From contig SCTK01000014.1 of NCBI GenBank assembly GCA_004298905.1, positions 1 to 64,000 of the forward strand: a DNA stretch of 64,000 bases, read 5' to 3'. The DNA comes from Burkholderiaceae bacterium. GTDB lineage: Bacteria; Pseudomonadota; Gammaproteobacteria; Burkholderiales; Burkholderiaceae_D. Below are positions 12,613 through 54,703 of the stretch, one piece after another. Position 1 is the stretch's first letter, and every line of letters begins with the position of its first letter. The position numbers were made by a program, and so were the translations under genes. The notes below the pieces were generated by a model, which had not been told where the DNA came from, searched no databases, and saw only the letters and a program-made list of their open reading frames with translations.

Positions 12613-13041
12613 TTAGAGTTCGAGTGACTTGGGTTGCTGGGCGGTATGCGGATGCGACGCATCGGCATAAATCTTCAATTTCTTGATCATGGCGTAGCCG
12701 AGCGGGCCTTTGGGCAACATGCCCTTGACCGCTTTTTCCAGCGCGCGGCCGGGAAAACGCTGCTGCATTTTCAGGAAGTTGGTTTCGTAAATCCCGCCGG
12801 GATAACCCGAGTGGCGGAAATACTTTTTATCTTCGGCCTTGGTGCCGGTCACGCGCAGCTTGGCGGCGTTGACGATGATAATGTAATCACCCGTATCGAC
12901 GTGCGGGGTGAATTCGGGTTTGTGCTTGCCGCGCAGACGGTGTGCCACTTCGCTGGCGACACGACCGAGGACTTTGTCCGAGGCGTCGATCACAAACCAG
13001 TCGCGCTGCACCTCATGGGGCTTGGCGGAAAAGGTTTTCAT
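12613..13041 (-). CDS. rplM: 50S ribosomal protein L13
   Basis: The 142-residue L13 is an early-assembly large-subunit protein. The N-terminus contains [19 protein letters not shown], followed by [37 protein letters not shown]-like sequence lies near the end. It is the first gene of the rplM-rpsI operon. A strong promoter lies about 165 bases upstream, so the mRNA has a leader of roughly 155 bases, long enough to hold a regulatory structure. Confidence 0.98.
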
Positions 13042-13203: not shown

Positions 13204-13233
13204 ATTATAAGGATTTTCGCCTGGTCAGGTCAA
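13204..13233 (-). promoter_or_regulatory. Sigma-70 promoter of the rplM-rpsI operon
   Basis: Read on the minus strand, TTGACC (13233-13228) and a perfect TATAAT (13209-13204) are 18 bases apart. Transcription would begin near 13197. The leader then contains two close copies of gatgtcaaac (13106-13128 region, written gtttgacatc on the plus strand). No other promoter candidate lies closer to rplM. Confidence 0.75.
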
Positions 13234-13261: not shown

Positions 13262-13295
13262 ATAAAAAAACCCGAGCGTTTGTGGCGCTCGGGTT
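13262..13295 (-). terminator. Rho-independent terminator of the candidate small RNA
   Basis: A ten-base-pair stem, aacccgagcg (13269-13278) with cgctcgggtt (13286-13295), closes a seven-base loop. On the minus strand it is followed by seven T residues. No minus-strand protein gene lies upstream that would need it, which is the main reason to infer a short noncoding transcript. Confidence 0.88.
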
Positions 13296-13402
13296 AAATC
13301 CACCAAAGGAGGAGGGTGGAGGAGACAATCGAGAATTCAGTGACCGCTGTGAAACCAAATTCGATGAGTGAATTCTACCCAAACTTTTGCTGCAATGCAA
13401 GA
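13262..13402 (-). ncRNA. Candidate small RNA with anti-Shine-Dalgarno hairpin loop
   Basis: On the minus strand a perfect TATAAT (13413-13408) precedes about 140 noncoding bases with three hairpins. Hairpin 1 pairs agaattca with tgaattct (13376-13369 and 13339-13332). Hairpin 2 pairs tccacc with ggtgga (13320-13315 and 13304-13299) and exposes the ten-base loop ctcctccttt. That loop contains ccucuu-type complementarity to Shine-Dalgarno sites in the exact form found at the 3' end of 16S rRNA. Hairpin 3 is a strong terminator with a T-run. A second ctcctcc lies just before hairpin 2. No good -35 box is evident. The architecture resembles proteobacterial trans-acting or growth-inhibitory RNAs with CCUCC loops; identity to a named family is not established here. 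Confidence 0.65.
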
Positions 13403-13821
13403 TAAAAATTATACCCGCCGAAAATTTGGTCGATATATCTTAAATACTTTATTATAATCAATAAGTTGATATGTATAATTTAAATGACCAGATAGTCAAA
13501 TGTTGACAAAAAGCGGGCTATAAAAGGTTAAATTTTGCATAACAGCATGGAAAATTCTGATAACTCAGCGCGCCAGCAAGCCCTGTTCTTCAATGTGACG
13601 CACGATTTCATCCAGGCCCGCTCCCGTGTTTTCATGTTGCTGAAAACGAATGGGCGTCCGCCACGTGCGTGCACCCCGGCCATACCACTCATTTTGGCCG
13701 CCCTTGCAGAATTGTCTTGAGCGACACATCTGCTCAGCTGGGTAGGCGGACGCCCAAGGTGCATGGGTACAATGATGGCGTAAGCATCTAGTCAAACTAA
13801 CCTAATCGGAAAAAATTCTTT
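13403..13821. other. A/T-rich intergenic region before the OsmC-like gene
   Basis: Bases 13403-13540 are strikingly A/T rich. They hold the minus-strand TATAAT of the small-RNA candidate and a plus-strand TTGACA at 13503-13508, with only weak -10 matches 17 to 19 bases later. From 13541 to 13800 short open frames exist on both strands, but none has a ribosome-binding site, a recognisable domain or consistent codon use. I see no gene there. Confidence 0.5.
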
Positions 13822-54566: not shown

Positions 54567-54703
54567 AGAGCGCGCATTTTAACGCAGTTGGCGCAGCAGG
54601 CCAACCGGGTATTTTGAGTGCGTCGCCTTGCAAGGAACTGCCGCAGGGGCTAACAGTCTTGGTGGCAGCCATTTTTCTTCATGCCGCCCAAAACATGTTG
54701 ACG

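Follow-up and report, generated by a model that had tools for sequence, protein, structure and literature searches.

The minus strand around positions 13262–13402 of a 64,000-nucleotide stretch of Burkholderiaceae DNA (contig SCTK01000014.1; this whole stretch is called the window, and all positions refer to it) raises the question of which small RNA is encoded there and which signal turns it on. An earlier note, made from the letters alone, had seen a noncoding gene with an anti-Shine-Dalgarno (anti-SD) hairpin loop and had pointed, without confirmation, to a class of toxic betaproteobacterial small RNAs. That class is RF02278 (Betaproteobacteria toxic sRNA), a known family that blocks ribosome-binding sites, and on sequence grounds it very probably includes the small RNA encoded here. 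The signal controlling RF02278 sRNAs is not established in the accessible parts of the published accounts. The new element suggested here is a -35 box within an exact PhbF/PhaR operator consensus, with an operator that appears to track PhaR across genomes, and the promoter is likely to be controlled by PhaR, a repressor that senses carbon-storage granules.

The Rfam model RF02278 covers 13327–13262 on the minus strand with 65.8 bits by cmscan, where the gathering score is 50, and the sRNA therefore passes the curated score in the covariance-model search that had been proposed as a check. The alignment is full-length (model positions 1–64), with an E-value of 4.9e-11 for the window. A covariance model of our own, R1, was built from 25 family members of other genomes (alignment A1) fetched via RF02278 irrespective of rplM, namely 25 of the 29 loci L009–L037 with L014, L022, L023 and L033 omitted, and scores the same core at 74.7 bits (E 9.2e-16). 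The predicted structure has the two hairpins and the CU-rich unpaired stretches complementary to ribosome-binding sites that belong to RF02278, and judged from scores and structure the membership is close to certain. The claim that the stretch is noncoding also stands, the sRNA being overlapped only by mechanical open reading frames, none judged a gene. The arrangement resembles that of NmsR A/B of Neisseria meningitidis (RF02877), which also fold into three stem-loops and carry anti-SD 1 in the stretch from SL1 to SL2 and anti-SD 2 in the loop of SL2 (PMC5362039), but those RNAs are tandem siblings under RelA control. The genome has one above-cut-off RF02278 match and not two tandem siblings, and at the sRNA NmsRb (RF02877) scores 28.3 bits, below its gathering score of 52, anti-hemB (RF02837) 29.9 bits, below 49.5, and ncS16 (RF02866) 22.7 bits, below 48. 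Elsewhere in the window a SAH riboswitch (RF01057) is found at 54569–54500 on the minus strand, with 57.8 bits and a gathering score of 37.

The above-cut-off match is the only one in the 2.48 Mb genome, where 14 others (E up to 10) all have 26.2 bits or less, unlike B. cenocepacia J2315, for which 4 copies are reported (PMC5688073). No match at E 0.001 was found in 14 control genomes, and at E 10 matches appeared in 13 of them, none above the cut-off. Among 60 relatives RF02278 is present in 48 at E 0.001 and above the cut-off in 40, with up to 19 matches per genome (E 0.001), and in an order-level sample of 300 genomes in 137 at E 1e-6 and above the cut-off in 114. Matches are clustered in genome G014, with three in 185-bp steps (C1:961093–961529), and in G005, with six among those listed within 16 kb (C113:125971–141581). 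The family owes its name to the inhibition of E. coli (as cited by PMC5688073 and PMC4603805), and four relatives are expressed in B. cenocepacia (PMC4603805). Overexpressed Burkholderia relatives are reported to suppress growth of E. coli and B. cenocepacia, and S17 of B. pertussis not to impair exponential growth of E. coli BL21 and to impair its entry into stationary phase only modestly (PMC11722255). The label "toxic" describes overexpression.

Table 1. Features of the sRNA locus and its surroundings (window positions).
Feature	Position	Strand	Basis
Putative sRNA transcript, ~104 nt, start A13365	13262..13365	-	position relative to shared promoter; fold z -3.74
RF02278 core: anti-SD 1, hairpin 2 and terminator	13262..13327	-	cmscan 65.8 bits; R1 74.7 bits
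Stem-loop 1, 5' domain, sequence poorly conserved	13333..13362	-	MFE = centroid; alignment A2
Anti-SD 1, UGUCUCCUCC (DNA TGTCTCCTCC), UGUCUCC unpaired	13318..13327	-	predicted structure
Hairpin 2, stem UCCACC/GGUGGA	13299..13320	-	predicted structure; pair changes in A1
Loop CUCCUCCUUU (DNA CTCCTCCTTT), anti-SD 2	13305..13314	-	sequence; predicted structure
Intrinsic terminator, 10-bp stem then T run	13269..13295	-	terminator scan; predicted structure
-35 box TTGCAT	13395..13400	-	17-bp spacing to -10, as in relatives
-10 box TAGAAT	13372..13377	-	sequence; shared with relatives
TATAAT of the earlier note, probably not the sRNA promoter	13408..13413	-	absent from consensus scan
Putative operator TGCTGCAATGCAA, exact PhbF/PhaR consensus TG[N]TGC[N]3GCAA, over -35	13388..13400	+	sequence match
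rplM (ribosomal protein L13), downstream neighbour	12613..13041	-	TIGR01066, 199 bits, cut-off 93
rplM promoter-like site TTGACC-18-TATAAT, downstream of sRNA terminator	13204..13233	-	consensus scan

The three successive hairpins of the earlier note are recovered, since 13365–13264 folds as three stem-loops with z -3.74, none of 200 shuffles being as good and MFE and centroid being identical, and so are the T-tailed terminator with its 10-bp stem (13295–13269), the middle hairpin presenting CTCCTCCTTT at 13314–13305 on a stem TCCACC/GGTGGA, and the second CTCCTCC directly 5' of the hairpin, within TGTCTCCTCC (13327–13318). The identity of the loop with the 3' end of 16S rRNA holds in part. 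This genome's 16S 3' end, GGATCACCTCCTTTCT, occurs in one place and is confirmed as SSU rRNA, and it shares eight identical bases (CCTCCTTT) with the loop, with one mismatch over all ten.

Two-sided changes are seen in 8 of the 13 pairs of A1, and no pair is broken among the 25 members at columns 10–31 (CG 18, UA 7) or at columns 12–29 (CG 13, UA 10, AU 2). GTCTCCTC is unchanged across these 25 members and GTCTCCTCC across 21 aligned transcripts. The loop drifts among relatives, and since the anti-SD is lost from it in L097, L103 and L108 it is ruled out as the chief conserved element; these three loci, upstream of rplM, have a CAAACA-like loop, yet UGUCUCCUCCACC and the stem are kept. According to the alignments the best conserved element is UGUCUCCUCC, which precedes and enters the hairpin. 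Hairpin and loop had both been expected to be conserved: of the 80 rplM loci examined, 35 have the hairpin upstream of the gene, and its stem has compensatory changes in the 25 members of A1, but the loop is less conserved than UGUCUCC.

The gene sits between rplM and a noncoding AT-rich stretch, and it does lie upstream of the rplM promoter and read towards rplM, as first described, with the promoter-like site at 13204–13233 (minus strand) beyond the terminator. The region upstream of rplM in relatives was followed up in 80 named loci, the best of 587, for which ribosomal protein L13 was the sole search key (some R1 source genomes may also have supplied rplM loci). R1 finds the sRNA upstream of rplM and on the same strand in 35 of the 80 (E <1e-7), in Cupriavidus, Herbaspirillum, Paraburkholderia, Burkholderia, Pandoraea, Noviherbaspirillum, Limnobacter, Thauera and other genera. 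It finds none there in about half of the loci, and because at least 800 bases upstream of rplM are present in 77 of the 80, this is to be read as the sRNA not being found by R1. On this synteny the sRNA gene is an old neighbour of rplM, and it belongs by sequence to an rplM-linked branch of RF02278, of which it is an ordinary member with the promoter as the interesting part. BCAL3348 of B. cenocepacia we take to be rplM. The ncS27 RNA of that species, 92 nt on the minus strand, adjoins BCAL3348a (tables in PMC5688073 and PMC4603805). It is probably the orthologue of the rplM-side sRNA, because an RF02278 member lies upstream of rplM in Burkholderia aenigmatica (locus L081), and that member matches ncS27 in length and orientation.

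The relatives have a common promoter of the form TTGC..-17-TATAAT. A spacing scan of 21 of the 36 sRNA-bearing loci, with spacings of 15–19 allowed, gives 17 bp in 18 of the 19 relatives with a promoter found, and one further relative, missed in this first scan, has a spacing of 17 in a second (20 loci). By this pattern TTGCAT-17-TAGAAT at 13400–13372 is probably the sRNA promoter; the strict consensus scan does not report it. The minus-strand TATAAT that had been taken for the promoter is present at 13413–13408, but it is probably not the promoter, the consensus promoter scan giving no -35 for it and the relatives sharing another.

PhbF, as PhaR is called in Herbaspirillum, has been footprinted on the consensus motif that lies here over the -35 box (PMC3206438). 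This motif has 101 strand-counted exact matches in this genome, and one site alone is weak. The genome encodes PhaR (TIGR01848, 153 bits, cut-off 109), and phaR terminates a phaC-phaA-phaB-like run in which PhaR alone is named by a family model. One phasin gene (PF09361) has an exact consensus site directly before it and, in addition, a TTGTGCGATGCACAA dyad that precedes its TTGACA box. Upstream of the phaC-like gene the consensus scan (up to one mismatch) gives no match; a TTGTGCGATGCACAG dyad was spotted there by eye, a status that weighs against the PhaR explanation. PhbF-consensus dyads are also found upstream of isocitrate lyase, TypA-like and aminotransferase-like genes (L163:838, L161:752, L155:840; the latter two names assigned by eye), and by these dyads the three genes are possible further PhaR targets.

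Motifs were counted in the 150 nt before the sRNA core, with 100 shuffles. An extended PhbF-type motif, in which the first TG was loosened to T[GT] after the sequences had been seen and which was written from promoters of the sets in which it was counted, occurs in 26 of 37 rplM-linked sRNA promoters (shuffle mean 0.32, maximum 2) and, among the other members that have a CCAC stem, in 19 of 22 (shuffle mean 0.19), and the published exact motif in 10 of 37 (0.09) and 9 of 22 (0.12). The 37 include L067 (E 0.0014), although its core looks poor; L102 (truncated where its locus stops), L086 (E 0.029) and the additional L085 match (E 1) are uncounted, L028 is left out, and the other family members counted are 60 drawn from a longer list. 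The extended motif is mostly absent with CUAU stems (6/29) and CCAA/U stems (1/31), and present in one of six members of a third stem group; the looser YGCRNYGCR lies above shuffles for both CUAU (13/29, shuffle 3.6) and CCAA/U stems (10/31, shuffle 2.7). A single promoter motif for the whole family is ruled out, as CUAU and CCAA/U stems are mostly without the extended form. Control stretches contain the extended motif in 0 of 79 rplM-proximal, 0 of 80 coding and 1 of 42 sRNA-less cases (300 nt each for the last), and YGCRNYGCR in 8, 0 and 8 of them respectively. The two Burkholderia loci L076 and L081 keep the sRNA but have a degenerate dyad, unlike this genome, where an intact PhaR-type dyad lies on the -35.

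For a comparison across genomes PhaR was identified by PF07879 and the dyad by the YGCRNYGCR core as defined for S. meliloti PhaR (PMC12542648). The set consists of the sRNA-bearing genomes of the order-level sample with listed coordinates, 30 of 95 PhaR-positive and 29 of 41 PhaR-negative (own genome apart), with the best sRNA match per genome and our genome's own family omitted from the PhaR-positive side. The core dyad is present in the sRNA promoters of 25 of 30 PhaR-positive genomes vs 1 of 29 PhaR-negative genomes (shuffle expectation 2.6 and 1.0), with a Fisher value of 1.2e-10 that ignores relatedness and is made too small by shared ancestry; by family the counts are 11/11 vs 1/10. The extended motif gives 21/30 vs 2/29, and 10/11 vs 2/10 by family. 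G155, the sole PhaR-less genome in which the core dyad occurs, is an assembly of 85% completeness, and two other listed members of its family have PhaR. Within genus g134 the dyad is present in G207, which has PhaR, at 133 nt before the sRNA core, and absent from G325, which has no PhaR. The dyad is missing in five of the 30 PhaR-positive genomes, the strict dyad is in neither of two PhaR-positive genomes of genus g44, which speaks against the PhaR link, and in several PhaR-positive genomes the core dyad is not close to the sRNA core but 115–145 nt upstream. The G+C content of the sRNA promoters is 0.39 in PhaR-less vs 0.49 in PhaR-positive genomes. At order level the idea that presence of the sRNA follows PhaR is ruled out (96 of 203 genomes with PhaR, 41 of 97 without).

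PhaR-less genomes mostly have another dyad, TATTAGA-NNAT-N-CTAATA, written after viewing promoters of the sets in which it was counted. It occurs in 25 of 29 PhaR-less promoters with up to three mismatches (shuffle mean 0.22), in 23 of 29 with up to two (shuffle mean 0), and in 2 of 30 promoters of the PhaR-positive set. It lies over the -10, 43–59 nt upstream of the sRNA core (L207, L227–L237, L239–L249, L251, L252). With one mismatch allowed, ten PhaR-less genomes have 1–4 strand-counted matches each, the reversed control has none in the same ten, and all eight exact dyads are at the sRNA promoter. Five other places (G095, G113, G128, G198, G260) lie between an ArsR-family gene and an RND adaptor-like gene that follows it on the same strand, the adaptor being named by a model for G128 only. 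In four PhaR-less genomes (L322, L323, L324, L331) a radical-SAM-like gene is also preceded by a one-mismatch copy of the dyad, the fragment in L322 having a weak NCBIfam match to rSAM_slr0320. The closest solved structure to the ArsR protein is BigR, to which two cysteines align with two of BigR; its score is below the BigR equivalog cut-off (78 vs 155 bits). A homologue of at least 80% identity is found in 28 of the 59 genomes, and the dyad accompanies it in 27 of them but is missing from all 31 others, eight of which have homologues of 66–79%. The four PhaR-less genomes without the dyad (G043, G155, G295, G325) are also without the ArsR protein, the PhaR-positive G121 and G320 have both, and G082 has the protein with the dyad absent. 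Our genome has no BigR-like ArsR homologue at E 1e-20. BigR senses sulfur species. It is somewhat better than an even guess, from these sequence patterns, that metabolic repressors which can replace one another act post-transcriptionally through RF02278 sRNAs, PhaR with poly-hydroxybutyrate (PHB) here and, in most PhaR-less relatives, a BigR-like ArsR protein with two cysteines, which would couple the RNA to sulfur or redox state.

The exchange of operators also allows that the dyad is real and bound by a repressor other than PhaR, since the motif is short and could suit other proteins, and most PhaR-less genomes examined have a different dyad at that place. We consider this unlikely, as the presence of the dyad follows the phaR gene, the dyad equals the footprinted PhbF consensus (PMC3206438), and such dyads precede the phasin gene and, by eye, the phaC-like gene in this genome.

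The length of the RNA depends on its start, which by the promoter position should be the A of a common CAT(T/C)G-like stretch, here 13365, giving an RNA of about 104 bases (13365–13262). The same rule gives 90–91 nt for the Burkholderia locus L081, and the published length of ncS27 is 92 nt (PMC5688073). A start near 13401 and an RNA of 140 bases, as originally proposed, is probably some 36 bases off. It is quite unlikely that the otherwise same sRNA is made as a ~140-nt transcript from the TATAAT at 13413 and matured by cleavage before UGUCUCC, a version for which the perfect TATAAT speaks, as does S17 of B. pertussis with a ~190-nt primary form and a ~67-nt form produced by RNase E processing (PMC11722255). 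Against it, the TATAAT has no -35 at proper spacing, the relatives' promoter lies 36 bases further down with 17-bp spacing, the shared-promoter rule matches the published ncS27 length to 1–2 nt, and the shorter RNA has the cleaner fold, the 141-base version reaching z -2.18 with 3 of 200 shuffles as good. The ~104-nt RNA may perhaps be trimmed to the ~66-nt core; a core of ~66 nt is reported to be cut out of ncS27 (PMC5688073).

We propose a circuit leading from PHB to translation. PhaR would occupy the -35 box while no PHB granules exist; under carbon excess granules form, PhaR would be drawn onto them and the sRNA derepressed. UGUCUCC and the loop CUCCUCCUUU, with Hfq, would then pair with the ribosome-binding sites GGAGACA and AGGAGG, and translation of mRNAs for amino-acid and organic-acid uptake and acetyl-CoA supply would stop. 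Family membership, predicted structure with covariation, rplM synteny, operator sequence and PhaR association across genomes are sequence-based, and PhaR binding, direction of control, processing, Hfq use and targets we infer. The explanation as a whole, an rplM-branch RF02278 sRNA that is repressed by PhaR, derepressed by granules and masks Shine-Dalgarno sites, we hold to be probable. Hfq is encoded in this genome. UGUCUCC is the complement of GGAGACA, and GGAGACA N1-8 ATG occurs 27 times in the genome, and the reversed pattern 2 times. The search for targets was a shallow one, with 26 of the 27 sites inspected, 20 of them with a reading frame of at least 40 aa, and the names come from 300-residue fragments scoring below full-length cut-offs, except HPr. 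The sites with the most favourable duplex energies lie before genes for a lipoprotein-like product (named by eye, without a family match), for a CoA ligase and a metabolite/H+ symporter, and for a branched-chain amino acid binding protein, and weaker sites precede aceE-like and acyl-CoA-dehydrogenase-like genes. As a pattern match, the predicted targets appear to agree in kind with those reported for ncS27 (PMC10987360) and S17 (PMC11722255).

Increased levels of RF02278 sRNAs are reported for biofilm and stationary phase as well as for starvation and glucose medium, and ncS27 rises 4.3-fold in glucose medium, 9.7-fold in biofilm and 3.9-fold in starvation, its overexpression slowing and its silencing speeding growth (PMC5688073). 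The starvation rise is not predicted by the granule model and counts against it. A general growth-arrest RNA that titrates all Shine-Dalgarno sites would be in keeping with the anti-SD sequences and with the E. coli inhibition behind the family name (PMC5688073, PMC4603805), and is nonetheless improbable: the attenuation of growth by overexpressed ncS27 was seen with some substrates but not with others (PMC10987360), exponentially growing BL21 was not impaired by S17 (PMC11722255), and anti-SD 1 is able to recognise more than the core SD, namely the extended GGAGACA. That the sRNA is instead an rplM leader, an attenuator of ribosomal protein synthesis without action in trans, is barely credible in spite of the same strand and the conserved neighbourhood, because up to 19 family matches per relative genome (E 0.001) cannot all be rplM leaders, the sRNA ends ~660 nt before rplM in Burkholderia L076 and L081, the rplM start has no GGAGACA site, and the terminator followed by a separate rplM promoter-like site rules out an attenuator.

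Among known systems the locus, with the RF02278 model, UGUCUCCUCC, a CU-rich loop and a terminator, is like the "double-hairpin RNAs" ncS03, ncS05, ncS27 and ncS62 of B. cenocepacia and S17 of B. pertussis. An upstream motif of three B. cenocepacia copies has been published (Fig. S3 of PMC5688073) and could overlap with the motif here. In regulation the sRNA, by its operator sequence, is like MmgR (alpha-r8) of Sinorhizobium meliloti, which is repressed by PhaR/AniA, has a promoter dyad and is tied to PHB (PMC12542648, PMC8401924), but MmgR is alphaproteobacterial, and the likeness is one of putative regulation. It is also like the PhaR/PhbF regulon of Herbaspirillum seropedicae, with the operator TG[N]TGC[N]3GCAA and repression of phaP1 and phbF; that regulon differs in that promoters of PHB genes and no sRNA are named in the accessible parts of the account (PMC3206438). 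PhaR, PhbF and AniA are not mentioned for RF02278 sRNAs in the accessible parts of PMC5688073, PMC4603805 and PMC11722255, and among the titles and abstract openings listed by a literature search, outside which most of the subscription literature lay, none joins PhaR and RF02278.

If the PhaR operator is true, PHB granules would be the signal for these sRNAs, and the sRNA would be the betaproteobacterial counterpart of MmgR. If, as it appears, members of a single sRNA family have exchanged the operator of one repressor for that of an unrelated one, regulatory rewiring would be plainly exemplified. PhaR control would link the storage of food with the silencing of genes for nutrient uptake, and could be tested directly in plant-associated and industrial PHB producers.
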